A DNA stretch of 20,355 nt, from positions 1-20,355 of the IMG/VR virus record IMGVR_UViG_3300032117_000190; one strand, given 5' to 3'. This stretch comes from a virus. Positions 3,523 through 16,077 of the stretch are shown here, one piece after another (within the stretch, counting starts at the first letter, position 1; every line of letters begins with the position of its first letter). The notes under the pieces were generated by a model that searched no databases, was not told the origin of the DNA, and was given only the letters and a program-made list of their open reading frames with translations. Position numbers and translations under genes: made by a program.

Positions 3523-5562
3523 TTAACTAGGATAAATTCTACGCATGACAATCTTAAAATTAAGACCGTAAGATGATGACGTAACATTCATTTGAACTGT
3601 GTTGCTACTTAAACGCAGCCATGATGGTGTTGTTCCAGAATAACTACGCAATGTGTTATTCATAATCGTTCCAGAATCAAAACCTGTTGAAAGATCAGCA
3701 GAGCCAGCATAGCAAGTGTATTCATACATGGCTTGCAAATTAACACCAGAACCACCTAATTCTGCTGCTGGAATTGTGTAAACGGTTGTCCAAGTAGCAG
3801 AAGTTAAAGTGCCACTAGCAACAAGCATTGTTTGATTTCCAAACTGTACGCTTCCGCCAGCAACAGGAACTGTTAAATTTGTTCCAATAACTAAATCACG
3901 ATTAGTCGCCGTATCTGCATTGATTCGAGGCGTATAGGTGTTGTATCCATAAGATACAGTCCAGCCACGTTGGTTGGCTGAAACACCGCTGTAAGTAAAC
4001 ACATCCGCAGCAGTACCAGTTCCCCAACCGTAAGGCATAGATACAGAACCAATTGCGTCTGCGCTAACAATGTTTCTATTGTTTGCCTCAAAGTAAGGCA
4101 ATTCAATCAAAGCAATACCGCCAGCCAAATGCAAAGCGCCATCAGTTGTAGTTGAACTACCGCAGTATTCCATTACCAAAGCAATGAACACCATGTCAAC
4201 TGCGCCTGTCTGAGTTACACCACGAGTGCAACCAGAAATATAGGCTCGATCAACACGAACAGACGTACATTGAGAGCCAGCAGGGTTTAGCTGAAAACTC
4301 AAACCATACAAACAAGAATTACCTGTAAAGTTTGCAATTCCAACATAAACGCAACCACGCAATTCAAGACCCGCACCGCTAAAGTTTGAAGTGCTGATGT
4401 TATTGAATTGGCAATAACTGCAATTGATACCCAAAATTCCGTAAGTAGTTAATCCGTCAGTCGAGCTTCCATTTGAAGTCAATGTCAAATTACTGATATT
4501 TAAAAATTGCTTTGTTGGGTAAGATGGTGCAGCAGATTGAATGTAGAAAATTTCGCTTTGCGTTGATGTATATAGCTTAATTGTTACTGCGCCGTTGCCA
4601 GTTATATTTCTAATTGGGTCTGTGCTAACAATGTTAATACTGCTATTTACACGATAAGTTCCGGCAGGGACTAAAAGATCAGTAACACCTGCGGCAATAG
4701 CTGCTTGAAAAGCTGGTTGACTATCTGTTGCACCAGTTGGGTCAGCCCCAAAATCAATAACGCTAACAGTCTGCTGCAACTTAGCTTGAACCGTAGTGGT
4801 TACTGCGCCTGTGCCGCCTTCGTTGTAGGCTACATTTAACGCCGAAATGCTTTGGGCCAATGCCGCACCACCAAGGGCTTCAACAATAGCGCCGTCATTT
4901 AGCCCAGTAACAAACGTAAACGATGTAGTGGAGGTTTCTGTATACGCTTCACCCAGAACTTGTTTCAGGCCGTTGACGTAGACCTGCAAAGAATTGATGC
5001 CGGGTGTATACGAGAAGCTGGTCAGATTAAATACAGTCTGGCCTGCTGTGGCTACAAACGCTTGTTCGTTAATAGCAATGCTACTACCACCCCCGCCACC
5101 ACCAGATGCGCTAACGCCGTAAAAGTTTGTGCCATCACCATAAACAATGCTGGTCGTTCCATTGGCTACGCTTACCGCAGCCCCCGTAGGAGAACTGGTT
5201 GTCCCGTAGGACATAGCAATTGCTTGGCTACCTGATGTACTATTTTTAACGATGTAGACTTTGCTGGCCCCGGCTGGCGCAATGATGTAACGTGTTTGTG
5301 AAAGCGTTGGAGTGCTGTTAATCACAATGACCGCATTACGAGCTTGGTCAACCGCCCCATTATTGGCTGTCAGAGCATAGTTAGCATCCGATGGCATCGT
5401 AATAGATGGATACGTACCAGTAGTGCTAGGACCGCCTGACACACCAGCAATCGCTTGCTCAATGAGAGTGCCTAAGTTAGCGTTGGTGGTGTCTCCCCAT
5501 GTGCCGACTTGAGTGCCATCAGCAATAAGTGAGAGTCGTAGGTCTTGTGAGTAAGTGGTCAT
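3523..5562 (-). CDS. Tailspike with pectate-lyase-3-like beta helix
   Basis: This is a 679-residue spike. Residues 1-40 (MTTYSQDLRLSLIADGTQ, then WGDTTN) form a conserved N-terminal fibre segment. A beta region leads to a six-Gly linker at 154-159. Another domain at about 163-235 (NEQAFVATAGQTVFNL, then YVNGLKQ) resembles short phage fibre connector domains. From about residue 266, VSVIDFGADPTGATDSQPAF is the typical opening of the pectate_lyase_3 beta-helix family, continuing through repeated N/S-turn coils to about residue 520. The final ~150 residues are beta-rich, without an S74 domain. Such spikes usually bind or depolymerise host surface glycans; no catalytic residues can be assigned by eye. 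AGGG lies seven bases before the ATG. Confidence 0.85.
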   Translation of the reverse strand: MTTYSQDLRLSLIADGTQVGTWGDTTNANLGTLIEQAIAGVSGGPSTTGTYPSITMPSDANYALTANNGAVDQARNAVIVINSTPTLSQTRYIIAPAGASKVYIVKNSTSGSQAIAMSYGTTSSPTGAAVSVANGTTSIVYGDGTNFYGVSASGGGGGGSSIAINEQAFVATAGQTVFNLTSFSYTPGINSLQVYVNGLKQVLGEAYTETSTTSFTFVTGLNDGAIVEALGGAALAQSISALNVAYNEGGTGAVTTTVQAKLQQTVSVIDFGADPTGATDSQPAFQAAIAAGVTDLLVPAGTYRVNSSINIVSTDPIRNITGNGAVTIKLYTSTQSEIFYIQSAAPSYPTKQFLNISNLTLTSNGSSTDGLTTYGILGINCSYCQFNNISTSNFSGAGLELRGCVYVGIANFTGNSCLYGLSFQLNPAGSQCTSVRVDRAYISGCTRGVTQTGAVDMVFIALVMEYCGSSTTTDGALHLAGGIALIELPYFEANNRNIVSADAIGSVSMPYGWGTGTAADVFTYSGVSANQRGWTVSYGYNTYTPRINADTATNRDLVIGTNLTVPVAGGSVQFGNQTMLVASGTLTSATWTTVYTIPAAELGGSGVNLQAMYEYTCYAGSADLSTGFDSGTIMNNTLRSYSGTTPSWLRLSSNTVQMNVTSSSYGLNFKIVMRRIYPS

Positions 5563-5565
5563 AGA

Positions 5566-6180
5566 TTAGCCCTGCAACAAGATGTTGTTAGGTATGTATT
5601 GAGTTAAAACCCAGTTGGTTCCATTAGACACCAAAGTGCATTGATCTCCAACAATTGCATTTAATATGGCAGTGCTGGCGCTGCCGCCGCCTATTGGAAC
5701 TACGTTACTAGATGCCGACACCACCGTATAGGCTTGGTAGTTTTGGAAATTCAAAACACGCCCTGAATAACTAGCAGCAGTTGGCAGCGTCACCGTCATA
5801 GTACCAGCATAGTTGTTAATGATCCATACATCAGTTGTACCAACGGTGTATGTACTGGTTGTGACGGTTACTGGGGCCGTAGAGACAATTTCACTTGGGA
5901 AAGTAACAAACACATTGACCGTGCCGCTAAACGTCACTGCACTGCCAGAGTTGCTAGACGAAAAAATTGTGGTGCGGGTTAGCGTTGGGCCAGTTGTTGA
6001 GTAAGTACCAAGACCAACTTCCCAATTTCCAGAAGAGTCTGTTGCAGAATAATAAGTCGTATTGGTGTTACCAATAACCGAAAACGATTGATAGCCAGTT
6101 ACAGATCCTGAAAGCGTAAAGCTGACCGTGGTATTGGCCGTACCTGTCTGCTGAACTCGATCTGCTAAAACTAATGCCAC
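5566..6180 (-). CDS. Tail fibre-associated structural protein, GTG start
   Basis: This is a 204-residue beta-rich protein starting at GTG (6180), preceded by AAGGATT at proper spacing. The N-terminus reads ALVLADRVQQTGTANTTVSF, then a G-Y-Q-S-F turn and SGNWEVGLGTYSTTG. This is a recurrent N-terminal domain in phage fibre genes and stand-alone proteins of this size. The sequence TRTTIFSSSNSGSAVTFSGT closes that domain near residue 90. The second half (about 100-204) contains beta strands (TYTVGTTDVWIINNYAGTMT, then VTLPTA) that resemble a second small fibre domain. It sits directly before the pectate-lyase-like spike and probably links fibres to the particle, though this is inferred from position and similarity only. 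Confidence 0.75.
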   Translation of the reverse strand: MALVLADRVQQTGTANTTVSFTLSGSVTGYQSFSVIGNTNTTYYSATDSSGNWEVGLGTYSTTGPTLTRTTIFSSSNSGSAVTFSGTVNVFVTFPSEIVSTAPVTVTTSTYTVGTTDVWIINNYAGTMTVTLPTAASYSGRVLNFQNYQAYTVVSASSNVVPIGGGSASTAILNAIVGDQCTLVSNGTNWVLTQYIPNNILLQG

Positions 6181-6189
6181 GATAAATCC

Positions 6190-7221
6190 TTATTGTGTTT
6201 CCACGAGTTCCCAGTTAGCCGTTTCTGAGTCATCAATTGTAGACCAACCCGGCGTAGATGTATCGCTGGTCGTTGCCCATGACGCTGTTTGAGCGTTGTT
6301 AATAACTGCCCAACTTGCCGCCTCTGCATCATTTATGGTCGTCCAATTTGCGTTCTCTGAATCATCAATAAGAACCCAATTAACGATCCCAAGCGTACCT
6401 ACAGACCCAGTGATGACCTGCCCAATTATGGACGTAGATACGCCCGGTTGCAAGCTGTTTACAGATGCAGTAGCACTTACTCCCGTAATAGCAACCGTAA
6501 CCGGAACACTGGCTACCATCGTTCCTGTAGACGTAGTACTTGTAACCCCAGATATTCCGATCAAAGTAAAAGCAAAGATGGTCCCTGTCTGCGCCGTTGA
6601 AGTGACCGAACTCAGAGCAGATGAAAGACCAGCTGTAACTGAATTTACAGATGCTGTGCTTGTAACCCCAGATAGCCCGATGGTGATGTTGCTAACCACC
6701 GTTCCTACAGAAGTAGTAGAACTGACACCTGTTAAAGCGTTTGTTTTGCTGGGTGTGACCGATCCAGTCGATGTTGTGCTCGTAACCCCAGAAATGCTGC
6801 CGGTATCAAGGTCCAGAACATTACCAACTGAAGTCGTGGACGTAACGCCACTTACAGCGATAGATACACTGGGTGTTAACGATCCTACAGATCCAGTAGC
6901 TGTTACGCCAGAAATAGGTTCTGACTGACCTTCAGTAAGAGTACCCGTTGAGGTGGTACTTGTTACGCCAGAAATAGCGTGACTTAGGTTGGGTGTTACT
7001 GTGCCTGTCGATGTGGTCGATGTAACAGCAGAAAGCTGGATAACTAAACCAGCCGTTGGCGAATTAACTGAAGTTGTAGAGCTAACGCCAGATAAGGCTA
7101 TCGAAACATTCGGAGAAACAGAGTTGACCGATGTAGTCGATGTAACGCCACTTAACGCAGTGGCAAAGACTGAAGATTTTGACGCAAAAGGGGCCGCCGC
7201 AAATGCGGTAAAACCAAACAT
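6190..7221 (-). CDS. Low-complexity virion protein with two tandem repeat arrays
   Basis: This is a 343-residue protein dominated by repeats. After a 21-residue Ala/Phe-rich leader, about thirteen copies of a 20-residue unit run from residue 22 to 280 with consensus [A/G][L/I]SGVTSTTSxGTVTPxxx. Unit 11 has two extra residues and the last is truncated. The rest (281-343) is five and a half copies of an 11-residue Trp unit, NWxxIDDSExA. The strict spacing suggests a beta-solenoid or extended Ser/Thr-rich fibre. It lies between the paralogous beta proteins and the fibre cluster, so it is probably a virion surface or tail protein. I know of no assigned function. A long antisense ORF on the plus strand exists only because of the repeats. 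Confidence 0.75.
   Translation of the reverse strand: MFGFTAFAAAPFASKSSVFATALSGVTSTTSVNSVSPNVSIALSGVSSTTSVNSPTAGLVIQLSAVTSTTSTGTVTPNLSHAISGVTSTTSTGTLTEGQSEPISGVTATGSVGSLTPSVSIAVSGVTSTTSVGNVLDLDTGSISGVTSTTSTGSVTPSKTNALTGVSSTTSVGTVVSNITIGLSGVTSTASVNSVTAGLSSALSSVTSTAQTGTIFAFTLIGISGVTSTTSTGTMVASVPVTVAITGVSATASVNSLQPGVSTSIIGQVITGSVGTLGIVNWVLIDDSENANWTTINDAEAASWAVINNAQTASWATTSDTSTPGWSTIDDSETANWELVETQ
6193..6381 (-). repeat. Eleven-residue Trp repeat (33-bp units)
   Basis: Successive units are NWVLIDDSENA, NWTTINDAEAA, SWAVINNAQTA, SWATTSDTSTP, GWSTIDDSETA and the partial NWELVETQ. Trp falls every 11 residues without a gap. Similar W-x-x-I/V-x-D/T motifs occur at C-termini of other aquatic phage structural proteins. 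Confidence 0.85.
6382..7158 (-). repeat. Thirteen diverged 60-bp coding repeats
   Basis: These are the 20-residue units of the repeat protein at the DNA level: a 60-bp period with the recurring segment GTAACxCCAGAxAT (plus-strand view). Copies differ at synonymous and nonsynonymous positions, so the array is old or under diversifying change rather than a fresh expansion. Confidence 0.8.
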
Positions 7222-7240
7222 GGTTTACCCCCTTAGAAAA

Positions 7241-7696
7241 TTAAGCCAAGTTCAGCAGCGCAGTACCAGCAGCATTAGAAGGCATGGTCAGAGTAAAAGT
7301 ACCAGCAGTCACAGTTTGTGAGCCAAAGGTAAACACACCAACAGCCGCATTGCTTTGCGTGGAATTGTAGATCAACACAGTATCAAACGCAGTAGTCAAC
7401 GTCACCGTGGTATAGACCAATGATGCAGAAGGCGTCCAATATGCAGTTGTACCGCTGGTCGTGGGGGCCGTACCGTTAGTCACCGTAATACCACCAGCCG
7501 TGTAGCCAGTACCAGACACTTCGCCAGTAGCAGAATATGCCGTGGTCGATGCGTTCAGCGTAGCCGATGCCAAATACAAAGCCGCTTTGAACGTGTCTGC
7601 CGCAGTTGTGCCGCGAGTAGGAGCAGTACCAAAGTTGTGGGTTGCAGTAAGAAGCTGGCCCTTGAAAGAGGTGCACATTGCTTGTGTGTTACTCAT
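7241..7696 (-). CDS. Beta-rich virion protein, paralogue A
   Basis: This is a 151-residue protein. The N-terminus contains MCTSFKGQLL (residues 7-16), followed by a strand-rich region FKAALYLASATLNASTTAYS and the glycine turn GTGYTAGG, then VLIYN and FGSQTVTAGTFTLTMPS near the end. AAAGGAAAT precedes the ATG. This architecture recurs in phages near adaptor and fibre genes; I recall no experimentally defined role. It is clearly homologous to the protein at 7906-8367, and the two bracket a 63-aa gene, implying duplication. A tail or decoration component is the likeliest role. Confidence 0.75.
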   Translation of the reverse strand: MSNTQAMCTSFKGQLLTATHNFGTAPTRGTTAADTFKAALYLASATLNASTTAYSATGEVSGTGYTAGGITVTNGTAPTTSGTTAYWTPSASLVYTTVTLTTAFDTVLIYNSTQSNAAVGVFTFGSQTVTAGTFTLTMPSNAAGTALLNLA

Positions 7697-7706
7697 GATA
7701 TTTCCT

Positions 7707-7898
7707 TTAAGCTAACATTGCTTGGATGCCTTCAGCAACCACATTTTTCTTTAAGTGAACATGCACAGAACGATGCACAAGTTCGCCTTCTAACCAGTAC
7801 TCAACCCACGTGGTGATCTCGTTGTCATTATCCAACGAACCTTCTTTTTTCTCAAGTTTGGAATCATCCATGATCCCTTTAGTGGTCGTAATTAGCAT
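7707..7898 (-). CDS. Small conserved phage protein, unknown function
   Basis: This is a 63-residue protein starting MLITTTKGIMDDSKLEKKEG. An acidic middle (DNDNEITTWVEYWLEGELVH) leads to RSVHVHLKK. GAGG lies five bases upstream of the ATG. It sits between the two paralogous beta proteins. The charged, strand-compatible sequence with HVH suggests a compact soluble protein. Close relatives seem to recur in this neighbourhood in aquatic phages. No function is known to me. Confidence 0.7.
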   Translation of the reverse strand: MLITTTKGIMDDSKLEKKEGSLDNDNEITTWVEYWLEGELVHRSVHVHLKKNVVAEGIQAMLA

Positions 7899-7905
7899 TT
7901 TTTCC

Positions 7906-8367
7906 TCAGTCTGGGCTACTGTAATTAATACTACTGGACGTTGTTCCCAGCGTCAAAATTGCAGATGAAGCATTTGCCGTTGGGAAGTTAATTGTAAAAC
8001 TGTTGGATGACATTTTGTCAGATCCAAAGTTCAACACAAAACACGCTGCACCCGTAGTAGCGTTGTATACCAATGCACCACGAGCTGTGATAGCACCAGT
8101 CCACGTTACAGGATTAAACGATACATAAGTAATGTTGACCTGATTGTTCTGTGTTGGCGGCGTAGAAATAACCAATGCCTTACCGCCAGCCGTATAGCCA
8201 GATCCAGTTACCTCATTTACATTTGTGTATGCTGAAGTAGTTTGGTTCAAGTTTGCATTGGCGTTATACAGCGCAATCTTGTAAGTGTATGGCGTACCAA
8301 CAGCAAAGTTTTCTAACCCACTGAGTAAGTTTTGCTGGAAGGCCGTGCAAGATGTTTGGACAATCAT
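7906..8367 (-). CDS. Beta-rich virion protein, paralogue B
   Basis: This is a 153-residue protein aligned over its full length with the protein at 7241-7696. CTAFQQNLL matches CTSFKGQLL; YKIALYNANANLNQTTSAY matches FKAALYLASATLNASTTAY; GSGYTAGG matches GTGYTAGG; ALVYN matches VLIYN; FGSDKMSSNSFTINFP matches FGSQTVTAGTFTLTMP. Its ATG overlaps the stop of the 321-aa adaptor-like gene upstream (ATGA), so it is translated together with it. That coupling supports a structural role in the tail or head-tail interface, but no function is established. Confidence 0.75.
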   Translation of the reverse strand: MIVQTSCTAFQQNLLSGLENFAVGTPYTYKIALYNANANLNQTTSAYTNVNEVTGSGYTAGGKALVISTPPTQNNQVNITYVSFNPVTWTGAITARGALVYNATTGAACFVLNFGSDKMSSNSFTINFPTANASSAILTLGTTSSSINYSSPD

Positions 8368-9329
8368 GAGACAACATTACCTTTAAGGTTGATGTTGAGC
8401 TTTGTCTGACCATCCCTGTAAGCATCGCCTCTTTCAAGACCGTTGCCCAGTTTAATAGCCAGCTGCAGAGCTTCTTGGTATTTGTCTTCGTAATACTTGA
8501 CCATATCCTGCTCACCCTTCATATAGATAACTGCTTCACGCATACAGCCATACAAAAGTACAGGATCAAAGTTATTTCCAAGCCAGCTGGTCCCAGTGGA
8601 ATTGTTGATCGTTGAGACAGTCATGGTAAGACCAGCACCCGGACCACCTAAATAAGAACTGGCGACCGTCAGCACATCGCCAACACTGTAAAAGTTGCCG
8701 CCGTTTTGCAGGGTAAAAGTAATAGTCTGCGCTGGTGAAAGACCAGTCACCAAAATATCCCCATAGCCAGCAGAGCCTGAGCCAGATCCAACATAACTCA
8801 AAGGAACATTCGTATAAAGACCCGGCGAATACAATTGATTGCCACTAGAAGTAATAGTGATAGCTGTAATCTGGCCTTGAATGATGCTGGTCGGGTAATA
8901 GAAGTAGTGCAACTCTGCCGTATAGGTTGCGTCTGGCGTTGGGCCTAGCAAAAACGACAAATTTGTTGATACTGTCCCACCTGAGACAGTTGGGCCAAAA
9001 AGAGCATAGTACTCGGGTTGCCCAGTTGCTGAGACAGTAGGGTAAGCCTGCCGAATAAAGTTAACATCCTTGTTCAAAAGGTAAGAATAATTACCTGTTG
9101 AGTCTATGCAGGCCAAAGAATACGTAGACAAATAGTCTGGTGGCGCAGATAGGTAAGGCACACCGTTATTGATCACGCCAGTGACGTTTTTACGTAACGA
9201 TGGGAACGCAACTGCTGTATAAACACGTTGTTCCACCTCCTGAACGAAGGTAGGAATACTATCTACAAAAGAACCCTCAGAGTTTTGAGAGTAATTCTGT
9301 ATCGTGTTATACAGCGTTTCGTAATTCAT
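8364..9329 (-). CDS. Head-tail adaptor-like structural protein with inserted beta module
   Basis: This is a 321-residue protein. Residues 1-50 are helical and conserved-looking (FVQEVEQRVYTAVAFPSLRK), followed by YLSAPPDYLSTYSLACID, YLLNKDVNFIRQAYP and ELHYFYYPTSI. The C-terminal helices are WLGNNFDPVLLYGCMREAVI and the LGNGLERGDAYRDGQ tail. Together these resemble a family annotated in phages as adaptor protein (SU10-adaptor type), expected to sit between portal and tail. Residues about 152-244 look like an inserted Gly-rich beta domain that splits an otherwise continuous adaptor core. The ATG overlaps the previous stop by four bases. The adaptor assignment is from memory of the family and should be tested by profile search. 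Confidence 0.75.
   Translation of the reverse strand: MNYETLYNTIQNYSQNSEGSFVDSIPTFVQEVEQRVYTAVAFPSLRKNVTGVINNGVPYLSAPPDYLSTYSLACIDSTGNYSYLLNKDVNFIRQAYPTVSATGQPEYYALFGPTVSGGTVSTNLSFLLGPTPDATYTAELHYFYYPTSIIQGQITAITITSSGNQLYSPGLYTNVPLSYVGSGSGSAGYGDILVTGLSPAQTITFTLQNGGNFYSVGDVLTVASSYLGGPGAGLTMTVSTINNSTGTSWLGNNFDPVLLYGCMREAVIYMKGEQDMVKYYEDKYQEALQLAIKLGNGLERGDAYRDGQTKLNINLKGNVVS
8598..8876 (-). other. Inserted Gly-rich beta module in adaptor-like protein
   Basis: Residues 152-244 of the adaptor-like protein consist of ITAITITSSGNQLYSPGLYT, GSGSGSAGYG, and NGGNFYSVGDVLTVASSYLG followed by GGPGAGLTMTV. This two-part pattern (xGxxYxxGxYTxV and GGxxYxVGDVLT) is a module seen in many unrelated phage structural proteins. 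The boundaries are estimates. Confidence 0.6.
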
Positions 9330-10275: not shown

Positions 10276-11232
10276 CTACCTCATGTAGAACATATTCCGT
10301 GGCACAAACCTAATCGGAGCCTTTTCCCTATCCTCTTGAGACGCTAGATCCCATTGCAAATCATAGTCTGCCTTTAAAGCCATCAGACGATTTGGATCTA
10401 CCGCTGGGTTCTTCATGCCTAAGTAATAAGCCAGACCAGCTGTCATCGCAGGAATAAAGCGGAAAGGAATGTCATTAATGTTCGCACCCGTTCCAGCATC
10501 TTGAATCCGGCGTAAGCGCCAGTAAACAAAAGTGTAGTTACCACCAGAATTAGGTGTAGGCCACACATTGATGTTGGGAAGATTAGGAACAAACACTGGT
10601 GTACCAGTTGTATGCGCTGCAGCCGTAGTGCCAGCCTGCCCACGATAGCAGTTGATCAACTGATAAGGAGAAGACGTGCTAATGTTGGGATAGTAAATAA
10701 TTTCATTGTCCAACGTGATGTAGCCAGTTGCAGCCATATCAGCCAAGTTAGTCGTTGGACTCAGTTGAATTGTTGTATCCGTTGCGCTTAGGCCAGTTGT
10801 CGTCCCATTCCCATACAACGAGTATTGGGTTGGGTTTACATTCCCAGACTGGCGGTTGATCCAAACCTGAATAGGACGACCAACAGCCAGCTTGTTAGGA
10901 ATGGTTGAATACGTATCCTCAGAAATACGGCTGATGTTAATGTCGATCTGGTTTTGCAACGTGCCCTGACGTATAACCTGACTCAACAAATCAATCGTAT
11001 CAATAGGCAAAGCATAAGTGATCTGCCCCGTATTCAAAGGGATCTGGCCTTCTTCAACAGTCCACAGGTTGATACCACGGTTGGCCCACTCAACAGTCAA
11101 AATGTTGATACTGCGAGTAGCTGTACGCAGGTCATAGCCACTTCTCAGTTCAAGGCCGCATCGTTCAAATGCTTCCTCAACTAAGTCAGTAATCTTAAGA
11201 TTAAAGACTGAAGTGCCTGTGGTATATGCCAT
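10276..11232 (-). CDS. Head-tail connector-like structural protein with inserted domain
   Basis: This is a 318-residue protein. Conserved-looking core segments are LVEEAFERCGLELRSGYDLR (17-36), INILTVEWANRGINLWTVEE (42-61), ISRISEDTYSTIPNKLAVGR (100-119), VWPTPNSGGNYTFVYWRLRR (223-242) and the helical end from DIPFRFIPAMTAGLAYYLGM onward. Aquatic phages carry this protein next to the zinc-ribbon and adaptor-like genes. Its layout, with helices flanking a beta region, suits a portal-proximal connector or tail-tube-like protein. Residues about 143-217 look like an inserted module (GLSATDTTIQLSPTTN to RGQAGTTAAAHTTGTPV). It starts two bases after the stop of the 58-aa gene, with no clear ribosome site of its own, so translation is probably coupled. 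Confidence 0.75.
   Translation of the reverse strand: MAYTTGTSVFNLKITDLVEEAFERCGLELRSGYDLRTATRSINILTVEWANRGINLWTVEEGQIPLNTGQITYALPIDTIDLLSQVIRQGTLQNQIDINISRISEDTYSTIPNKLAVGRPIQVWINRQSGNVNPTQYSLYGNGTTTGLSATDTTIQLSPTTNLADMAATGYITLDNEIIYYPNISTSSPYQLINCYRGQAGTTAAAHTTGTPVFVPNLPNINVWPTPNSGGNYTFVYWRLRRIQDAGTGANINDIPFRFIPAMTAGLAYYLGMKNPAVDPNRLMALKADYDLQWDLASQEDREKAPIRFVPRNMFYMR
10582..10806 (-). other. Inserted beta module in connector-like protein
   Basis: Residues 143-217 carry GLSATDTTIQL, GYITLDNEIIYY, then INCYRGQAGTTAAAHTTGTP. This ATDTTI/GYIxIDxEIIxY/CxRGxxGTTAAAHxxG pattern is a common stand-alone or embedded tail-protein module. The core connector sequence resumes immediately after it. Boundaries are estimates. 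Confidence 0.6.
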
Positions 11233-11413: not shown

Positions 11414-11719
11414 TTAACTCGCTTGTGCAGGAGTTTCAACCACTGCTTCAGCAACTGGTTCAGCAACTGGTTCAGCAACTGGAGTTTCAACCGGATCTGC
11501 AACTATCCCATTTGGGACAGTGGGCGCAATCTCAGCAACAAAGTTGGAAACCACTGCGCCTTGTGAAGCATCAATGTTTTTAGAAGTCAAAAAGTTTTCG
11601 ACAATAGATTTCTCTTTGCCTAAGAACTCTACAAAGTCATTCAACAATTGATGTTCTGAGCTGTCCAGTTTGTGACCAGCACTTTTCACATGATTAAAGA
11701 CACGTTCAAATAAGTTCAT
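11414..11719 (-). CDS. Small helical protein with PVAE-repeat tail
   Basis: This is a 101-residue protein. Residues 1-65 look helical (MNLFERVFNHVKSAGHKLDS, then NDFVEFLGKEKSIVENFLTS). The tail from about residue 76 is Pro/Val/Ala/Glu-rich, with three tandem copies of the four-residue unit VAEP/VAEA, probably disordered. Its ATG overlaps the upstream stop by four bases (ATGA). The repeated tail is encoded by perfect 12-bp DNA repeats and could vary in length between related phages. I do not recognise a defined family. Confidence 0.7.
   Translation of the reverse strand: MNLFERVFNHVKSAGHKLDSSEHQLLNDFVEFLGKEKSIVENFLTSKNIDASQGAVVSNFVAEIAPTVPNGIVADPVETPVAEPVAEPVAEAVVETPAQAS
11447..11482 (-). repeat. 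Three perfect 12-bp tandem repeats
   Basis: The plus-strand unit TTCAGCAACTGG occurs three times head to tail without a mismatch, encoding the PVAE repeats of the 101-aa protein. The array is flanked by the direct repeat GAGTTTCAACC at 11431-11441 and 11482-11492. Confidence 0.9.
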
Positions 11720-12181: not shown

Positions 12182-12979
12182 TTAGCAGAATTTGGTCTTG
12201 GTATGACCACGTTGGGCAATACCATCAGCACGATGGTGAGTAGCGCCACCATGAGCCATTTTCTTAACATGACCACCATGCTTCATGCCTTCTTTTTCAA
12301 AAGACTTGATGTTGTGTTCAGTCTCAATAGGTTCAACTTTGCCGCTGTCGCCAAAGTTTTTGCCACGGGTATGACCTTTTTTCTGGTCAGCGTGTTCGCC
12401 ATGCTTCAGGTTTTTTTCACCAGCTTTGATGGACTTGCCATCAGCAAAACCGCCATGAGCCATTTTGTGGGCTTTACCACCATGCTTCATTGCGCTGGCT
12501 TCATGCTCTTCTTCTTTAGCAATACGGCGCAATTCTTTGGCTTGGTTCATTTCGTGCATCTTCTCAGAAGCATGACCACCGTGAGCCATCTTGGTAGTTT
12601 TGTGATGGCCTTCGTGCATTGCCATATGGTGTTCAGCCATAGACAAATGGTGATGAGCCAGATGTTTGTGGTGAGCTTTAGACAAGCCACCATGTTTCAT
12701 TCCGGGTGCGCCCATAGGTGCGCCGCCGGGAGCCGCCATAGGAGCAGCAGGACCAGCAGGAGGTGCTTGCATGGCACGAGCTGCCATTAGCGCCATCGCT
12801 GGATTAACACCACGTTTTCTTGTAGCCATATCAATACCGCCTTTACTAAAATGTTTGCCTTTATCGGCATTTACAAAATCCTCGCCTACCGACTGAGGAA
12901 CTCCCACTTTTTTAGCAAAAGCCTTGTTATGGGCGATTGCCTCCATGAAATCATGCTGCTTCTTACTTTTGCTGGGCAT
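12182..12979 (-). CDS. His-rich HGG-repeat protein, probably a fusion
   Basis: This is a 265-residue protein when started at ATG 12979; a GTG one codon upstream is possible, but AAGGGG is better spaced for the ATG. Residues 1-48 resemble a stand-alone phage/plasmid domain (KSKKQHDFMEAIAHNKAFAK, then VGVPQSVGEDFVNADKG). At residue 51 a second start-like segment begins (MATRKRGVNPAMALMAARAM), followed by Pro/Gly/Ala sequence. Three MKHGG and three MAHGG motifs follow, spread through a region with His clusters such as HHKHLAHHH. The end reads RADGIAQRGHTKTKFC. It overlaps the preceding stop by one base (TGATG). The function is unknown; it may be an assembly or metal-binding protein. Confidence 0.75.
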   Translation of the reverse strand: MPSKSKKQHDFMEAIAHNKAFAKKVGVPQSVGEDFVNADKGKHFSKGGIDMATRKRGVNPAMALMAARAMQAPPAGPAAPMAAPGGAPMGAPGMKHGGLSKAHHKHLAHHHLSMAEHHMAMHEGHHKTTKMAHGGHASEKMHEMNQAKELRRIAKEEEHEASAMKHGGKAHKMAHGGFADGKSIKAGEKNLKHGEHADQKKGHTRGKNFGDSGKVEPIETEHNIKSFEKEGMKHGGHVKKMAHGGATHHRADGIAQRGHTKTKFC

Positions 12980-13221
12980 CACTTTGCCCCTTGTTGAATA
13001 AGCTGGTCAATTTTACTTTCCAACTTGTTAAAGCGAGAATCAATGTGTTCAGTAATTTTGTTAAGTTCGTCATTGGTGACATACTCCCTTGCGATCTCTT
13101 CGCGCGTACGATTGATCAGAATCTCAATCCGTTTGAGATCATTAGACTTCTCTTTGAGAAAAAAGGCAACCATCCCCAGAACCAAGGACAAGCCACCCGA
13201 CCAAATCATTCCTGCGTCCAT
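12979..13221 (-). CDS. Small membrane-anchored coiled-coil protein
   Basis: This is an 80-residue protein. Residues about 6-22 (IWSGGLSLVLGMVAFFL) form one transmembrane segment. The rest is a charged helix with heptad-like hydrophobic spacing (RIEILINRTREEIAREYVTN, then FNKLESKIDQLIQQ). The start is one base after the preceding stop, with GGAAG upstream. Such proteins occur in phages as holin-like, spanin-like or unknown accessory proteins. The single membrane span with a long cytoplasmic or periplasmic coil fits more than one of these, so I leave the function open. Confidence 0.75.
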   Translation of the reverse strand: MDAGMIWSGGLSLVLGMVAFFLKEKSNDLKRIEILINRTREEIAREYVTNDELNKITEHIDSRFNKLESKIDQLIQQGAK

Positions 13222-15174: not shown

Positions 15175-16077
15175 TTAGTAAGAACCGTACACGCCCAATG
15201 GGTCAGAAACACCAAAGGAATAACGCTCACGAGACTTGTAACGCACGTTACCAGTATCAAAGTCGCCGTCCATGCTGTTCTGCAAAGGAGTACGCACAAA
15301 CATCTTCAAACCGTTAGGCACGTCAGTGGTCAAGAACCATGCGTTGGTAGCGGTCAAGAAGTGGTTAATGGTATAGCCTTCAGGGATCGAACCATTGTTT
15401 TCAATAGCGTTTACATCGTTGTTATTGGTACCAACACGGAGTTTGGTTTCCAACAAACGAGTAGCAACGAATTGCAAAGCAGGAGGAACGATCAGTTTCT
15501 TGGGCTTGGCAGCGATCAACAGGCTACGCTCATCAGTCCATGCAGCGATTTGAATCACAGCGTTTTCCAACGATGTTTCATTCAAGTCAGCAGGAGTAGA
15601 AGGAGTGTTAGCGTTAGTACCGCCAGAGATCAAGGGATGAGCAGTCGAGAACAAAGGCTGGCCGTCACCATAGGTGAAGGAGCTATTGAAACCGTTGTTC
15701 AACACAGCTGCAGCTTTAACCTGTTTGGTGTAAGCCATAGCACGGGCCAAGGCTTTGGTGTAACGACCAGACAACGAGTCATACAAGTTATCTTCAATCG
15801 CTTCTTCAGTCAGGCTGAAGCCCAAAGCAATGGTTTCGTGGTTGTAACGAGCAGTCCATGCTTCTTGGCCGTTGTCATAAGCGATGGCTTGACCTTCGTT
15901 CTTGACAGGGGCGGCAGAGAAGCCGGACAGTTTGGTTTCTTCTTCAAACGAACGCTCAGAGGTTTCAATTTCATAAATTTCTTTATGTTCTTCACCGTAA
16001 CGGGCGTACTCCAAACCGAACAAAGCGTTCAGGCCGGGAAGCAACTCTTTAAGTAGCTGTGCACGTGAAATAGCCAT
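15175..16077 (-). CDS. Major capsid protein, Mu gpT-like
   Basis: This is a 300-residue protein that forms the icosahedral shell. The helical N-terminus (RAQLLKELLPGLNALFGLEY) is followed by EIYEIETSERSFEEETKLSG and FSLTEEAIEDNLYDSLSGRY (the long spine-helix region of an HK97-type fold). Then come LFSTAHP (142-148), KPKKLIVPP (191-199) and RYKSRERYSFG (279-289). These features match the Mu-type major head subunit gpT family, at about its usual length. AAAGGAGA lies seven bases before the ATG. It is the last gene of the head operon before the strong terminator, following the decoration-like gene, which fits high expression. A long plus-strand ORF over this gene is an antisense shadow. Confidence 0.9.
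   Translation of the reverse strand: MAISRAQLLKELLPGLNALFGLEYARYGEEHKEIYEIETSERSFEEETKLSGFSAAPVKNEGQAIAYDNGQEAWTARYNHETIALGFSLTEEAIEDNLYDSLSGRYTKALARAMAYTKQVKAAAVLNNGFNSSFTYGDGQPLFSTAHPLISGGTNANTPSTPADLNETSLENAVIQIAAWTDERSLLIAAKPKKLIVPPALQFVATRLLETKLRVGTNNNDVNAIENNGSIPEGYTINHFLTATNAWFLTTDVPNGLKMFVRTPLQNSMDGDFDTGNVRYKSRERYSFGVSDPLGVYGSY

Follow-up and report, generated by a model that had tools for sequence, protein, structure and literature searches.

The closest described counterparts of the repeat-protein gene analysed here are found in two annotated phages, DSL-LC04 (OR003939, protein WJZ48131.1) and HTVC023P (MN698239, gp68). Both genes are unannotated (‘hypothetical’), and both proteins join a repeat shaft to C-terminal tryptophans spaced by 11 residues (four Trp in DSL-LC04 and three in HTVC023P). 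Likenesses of shape extend to several other fibrous proteins. The beta-spiral shafts of adenovirus and reovirus consist of short repeats with alternating hydrophobic residues and Gly turns, and the number of repeats sets their length. Right-handed beta-helix proteins, such as the HMW1 secretion domain (2odl) and SRRP (5nxk), stack their strands at ~20 residues per coil, and beta-helical tail fibres occur in phages (e.g., phage 7-7-1, 9rkv).

The window (the whole stretch of viral DNA analysed, 20,355 nucleotides) encodes, on its minus strand (7221 to 6190), a protein with the same combination of repeat shaft and 11-spaced C-terminal Trp (Table 1). As in the window, an adaptor gene and a phrog_644 gene lie upstream in DSL-LC04, and a tail protein carrying the N-domain of the window's tail fibre is encoded directly downstream in both DSL-LC04 and HTVC023P. 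The DSL-LC04 protein differs from the window protein in its period of 22 residues and its WG-type N-end, and HTVC023P gp68 in its less regular units. The predicted shape of the window protein resembles the coils of 2odl and 5nxk, but sequence similarity is undetectable and Foldseek is not significant; these comparisons point to a common arrangement, not to ancestry. The phage 7-7-1 fibre is alike in its predicted repeated-strand shaft and its tail locus, with no sequence match, and the likeness to adenovirus and reovirus shafts is drawn from their general description. The family seems to be a variation on an established theme, the repeat-shaft fibre.

Table 1. Coordinates of the repeat-protein gene, its parts and its neighbours in the window.
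Feature	Position	Strand	Evidence
Repeat-protein gene, 343 aa + stop	6190..7221	(-)	ORF; purifying selection against relatives, pN/pS 0.13-0.35
N-end, residues 1-22, conserved MFGFTAFAAAPFAS peptide; putative virion anchor	7156..7221	(-)	Motif in 36/58 full-length 20-type relatives; WG-rich N-end in the other 22
Shaft, thirteen 20-residue units, residues 23-281	6379..7155	(-)	Autocorrelation z 14; period kept in relatives; beta-strand alternation
Trp array, six Trp at 11-residue spacing, residues 282-343	6193..6378	(-)	Invariant Trp and DDSENANW core in relatives
Insertion site of three extra 22-residue units (198 bp) of relative L005, between units 1 and 2	7089..7090	(-)	Gene alignment with window; L004-L005 comparison
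Upstream neighbours: phrog_644 gene, 63-aa gene, phrog_644 gene	7241..8367	(-)	Conserved among relatives
Downstream neighbours: 204-aa gene (5566-6180), tail-fibre gene (3523-5562)	3523..6180	(-)	Conserved among relatives

A first-pass annotation of the window had described thirteen 20-residue units followed by an 11-residue Trp repeat, and both periods are borne out by autocorrelation and by residue positions. Over residues 1-280, lag identity is 0.41 at lag 20 (z = 14.2) and 0.39 at lag 40 (z = 12.6), against a 99.9th percentile of 0.22 for the best lag in 1000 shuffles. Units start at residues 23, 43, 63, 83, 103, 123, 143, 163, 183, 203, 223, 245 and ~265, the count of thirteen comprising twelve full units and a last partial one of ~17 residues. 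The six Trp occupy positions 282, 293, 304, 315, 326 and 337, and the C-terminal part has a lag-11 identity of 0.385 (z = 7.6). The spacing, described at the outset as strict, is so in the Trp array, where all five intervals are exactly 11, but not throughout the shaft, where one spacing is 22 and the rest are 20. Ser and Thr make up 39% of the protein (133/343). At the DNA level, Tandem Repeats Finder (TRF) detected no tandem array scoring 30 or more at the repeat gene, and identity among 11 aligned units averages 49% (maximum 68%). Open frames on the plus strand over the gene (6296-6928 and 6989-7321) were judged to be shadows of the Ser/Thr/Val codons and not genes.

Profile searches with the window protein in Pfam, PHROG and NCBIfam returned no family in any of the three, and its relatives had no convincing match in Pfam or PHROGs. 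A PDB sequence search yielded chance matches to dehydrogenases only (E 0.055 or worse), and tblastn of the window protein against annotated phages gave no match. With one diverged relative (L055) as a bridging query, the annotated phages DSL-LC04 and HTVC023P and a Manatee Spring genome were reached, in all of which the gene is ‘hypothetical’. Among IMG/VR loci, 61 of the 20-residue type were recovered with the window protein as query and 115 of the 22-residue type with the DSL-LC04 protein; 80 of the latter were kept for later counts. A search of bacterial and archaeal genomes with one peptide (DDSENANW), which reaches close relatives only, confirmed no relative, and the literature held nothing specific on such a repeat family. 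The loci thus define a widespread phage protein family without a name, found mostly in uncultured phages; its absence from curated profile libraries is why such genes are labelled hypothetical.

Most relatives are ~30-40% identical to the window protein. A unit core, [TS]GVxAxGxVG, recurs in tandem units of 20-22 residues, with SGVTSTTSVG at the equivalent positions in the window. Unit spacings in the 20-type set are 20 (218 cases), 21 (91) and 22 (53), and the spacing in the DSL-LC04-type set is 22. Across 90 non-redundant C-ends, the Trp interval is 11 in 231 of 239 cases, 12 in seven and 43 in one, with runs mostly of 2-6 Trp (2, 3, 4 or 6 in most C-ends). The junction between the two parts is also regular: the first Trp follows the last unit at 16 residues in 43 of the 53 20-type proteins listed and at 16 plus one 20-residue unit in 6, and at 14, or 14 plus one 22-residue unit, in 49 of the 55 22-type proteins listed. 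Absence of the period from relatives had been named in advance as an argument against a structural solenoid; the relatives keep it. The most telling sign that the periods are structural is that both remain exact despite such low identity, and their preservation in more than 100 diverged relatives indicates structural constraint and not chance.

The ends of the protein behave as modules. Among 58 full-length 20-type relatives, 36 have the N-end MFGFxxFAxAPF and 22 an N-end like MTTAWGxGAWGxxxWG. In three relatives (L056, L058 and L061) the N-end is of the MFGF kind and the Trp end is retained, and between them lies a different middle repeat (ETATGSD-like), also of period 20, which may or may not be homologous to the window's repeat. 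The Manatee Spring protein has the repeats and a different C-end, without 11-spaced Trp. The Trp part, which the first reading of the sequence had set apart from the shaft as a distinct tip, is indeed a separate and strongly conserved module.

Copy number was compared in related contigs. In four relatives (L001-L004) the repeat protein equals the window protein in length, while that of L005 has 409 residues. Over 6.3 kb, L005 matches L004 at 97-99% identity except for 198 bp, corresponding to three extra 22-residue units, and in the alignment of the L005 gene with the window gene a single large gap, between units 1 and 2, spans three 66-bp units. This within-species change was seen in one contig (L005). 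The extra units differ from one another at synonymous sites and hence are not fresh duplicates; a loss of units on the window's side and a gain in L005 are equally likely. Full-length members with this repeat usually have ~5-18 recognisable unit cores, counts that are lower bounds since the core pattern misses degenerate units. The earlier expectation that repeat number varies between strains thus holds for a whole-unit difference between close strains, and an accompanying change in length is probable. Assembly collapse is an unlikely source of the length differences because units share at most 68% nucleotide identity.

In the ten genes tested, units agree at third codon positions about as much as after shuffling of synonymous codons (z -0.6 to 2.8; window z 1.2), which rules out recent duplication as the origin of the units. 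With synonymous sites near random, amino acids conserved and pN/pS between relatives in the range of purifying selection (0.13-0.35), the units are old and their period is maintained by selection.

The 22-residue unit has small or hydrophobic residues at positions 2, 4, 6, 8 and 11, 13, 15, 17, 19, 21, with breaks at conserved Gly. This alternation is a beta-strand pattern, read from the residues independently of AlphaFold2. The AlphaFold2 model of the window protein (40 aligned sequences) has a repeated beta-strand pattern with a mean pLDDT of 60; residues 100-210 score about 72-82, with 75-82 in the best middle part, and the N-end and Trp end fall below 50. For a 225-aa homologue (L046), mean pLDDT is 45 and the solenoid was not reproduced. 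As a check on disorder, prediction therefore gave a mixed answer, and the ‘designed solenoid’ of the first-pass annotation is recovered for the window protein, but not confidently, and not for the homologue. By VIA-align the window model lies nearest to beta-helices, with Z 14.1 for 2odl (rmsd 3.1, 226 residues), Z 10.6 for 5nxk (rmsd 4.0, 208 residues) and Z 9.2 for the tail fibre of phage 7-7-1, 9rkv (rmsd 4.2, 220 residues). Foldseek of the model on PDB found nothing significant (best E 0.76), a missing hit that leaves the fold possible, and the best hit in a viral structure library is an uncultured phage protein (E 2e-5). For perfect repeats, AlphaFold2 has a documented bias towards beta-solenoids (PMC11795689); the imperfect units here lessen this worry and do not remove it. 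A beta shaft is well supported by the sequence pattern and moderately by AlphaFold2, and a single-chain solenoid is a tentative fold for it.

In nearly all 20-type loci, an SU10-adaptor-like gene is followed by small genes, an adaptor, phrog_644, the 63-aa gene, a second phrog_644, the repeat gene, and then the 204-aa gene or a tail protein. The window's tail-fibre gene encodes a conserved N-domain and a pectate-lyase-like domain. In the 22-type loci, phrog_644 is present in 58/80, the adaptor in 54/80 and the N-domain of the window fibre in 66/80, usually just downstream; many absences are contig ends. The order adaptor, phrog_644, repeat protein, tail protein is common to most loci of both types and to DSL-LC04. 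The phrog_644 paralogues at 7241-7696 and 7906-8367 flank the 63-aa gene, a trio kept in most 20-type relatives.

The window and L004 are similar in nucleotide sequence from 7899, immediately ahead of the 63-aa gene, down to 4744, which is ~272 codons inside the fibre gene; the similarity of L001, L002 and L006 to the window stops at the same base. Within 4744-7899, L004 and L005 are ~98-99% identical to the window, while their upstream genes are only ~43-62% identical at the protein level, the mark of a recombined block. In L001, L002, L004 and L006 the fibre gene keeps its N-domain and has exchanged the pectate-lyase-like distal part beyond 4744. The shared block indicates that the repeat gene and the fibre N-domain can travel as one piece, the distal part of the fibre being exchanged separately.

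We give slightly better than an even chance to the reading in which the product of the repeat gene is a side-fibre-like appendage of the tail, made up of an anchor at the N-terminus, a beta-repeat shaft of variable length and an end formed by the Trp array. Its virion location, its fibre nature and the distal position of the Trp end are suggested by gene order and by analogy. The short N-terminal peptide would fix the protein to the tail, and each 20-residue unit would form one turn or step of beta structure in an elongated shaft. The C-terminal 11-residue repeats would make a rigid, compositionally different end displaying a row of Trp side chains, which may bind a glycan or protein on the host surface, or may instead lock the end to a partner, for example the tail-fibre protein encoded next to it. 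If one unit is one turn or step, gain or loss of whole units would alter length and leave the fold unchanged; the protein is probably an adjustable-length attachment fibre, carried by a water-borne phage that is probably podovirus-like.

The main competing view concerns the architecture of the shaft and comes somewhat short of an even chance: a homotrimeric fibre (beta-spiral or triple beta-helix) in place of a single-chain solenoid, with function as in a tail appendage. Phage fibres are mostly trimers, and adenovirus shafts and many phage fibres are beta-spirals or triple beta-helices. The small/hydrophobic alternation, in two runs per unit with Gly-containing breaks, fits either architecture, and single-chain prediction, which is blind to trimers, failed on L046. 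The monomer model of the window protein is nevertheless regular, at moderate confidence, with single-chain beta-helices as its best match, and the family searches (Pfam, PHROG, NCBIfam) found no known fibre domain.

Other views would move the protein away from the tail or deny it a regular shape. Location is not strictly given by gene order in virion-protein blocks, and Ser/Thr/Gly-rich repeat proteins can decorate heads, but a capsid decoration or head fibre is unlikely given that the conserved neighbours are an adaptor and a tail-fibre protein, that the major capsid protein gene (15175-16077, phrog_371) is ~8 kb away, and that the block shared with L004 unites the repeat gene with the fibre N-domain. 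A largely disordered Ser/Thr-rich linker or mucin-like protein, its period a relic of past duplication, would suit the 39% Ser and Thr and the low pLDDT at both ends of the window model and throughout that of L046. We regard it as improbable: amino acids are conserved while synonymous sites between units are near random, which places the period under selection; hydrophobic and Gly positions are fixed; the 11-residue spacing is exact across very diverged proteins; and a different repeat sequence (ETATGSD-like) has the same period of 20. Just as improbable is a non-virion protein, e.g., an assembly factor for the adjoining fibre. Fibre chaperones are often encoded beside the fibre gene, and adjacency to that gene is conserved here, but a chaperone would not usually vary in unit number, have modular ends or consist of Ser/Thr/Gly-rich beta repeats, and the profile searches gave no similarity to chaperone families.

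An extension of the tail-appendage reading, which we consider doubtful, is a modular, length-tunable fibre in which units of 20, 21 or 22 residues, even unrelated-looking ones, would be interchangeable because coil length is the constraint. The 11-residue Trp array would then continue the lattice in half-coils (22 = 2 x 11) and present two ladders of Trp at an end that binds a receptor or locks onto a partner. The fixed register between shaft and Trp and the period of 20 in the alternative middle module weakly favour this arrangement. Half-unit symmetry of the 22-residue units is marginal (0.047 by random pairing of residue classes, 0.24 by residues), and 20-residue unit profiles had none in the same test.

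If the protein is a fibre, whole-unit gain and loss would be a simple means by which phages could alter their reach or their access to receptors. The natural length series among relatives makes this idea testable, and HTVC023P, which infects cultured Pelagibacter, provides an experimental system.

Several further features were seen in the window. Two matches to the SU10 adaptor family (8364-9329 and 10276-11232) represent an unexpected duplication of a connector component. A 12-bp tandem repeat at 11435-11482 encodes the VAEP repeats with which a 101-aa protein ends, and a His/Lys/Met-rich protein of 266 aa (KAHHKHLAHHHL...), encoded among the structural genes at 12182-12982, has recognisable homologues in relatives.
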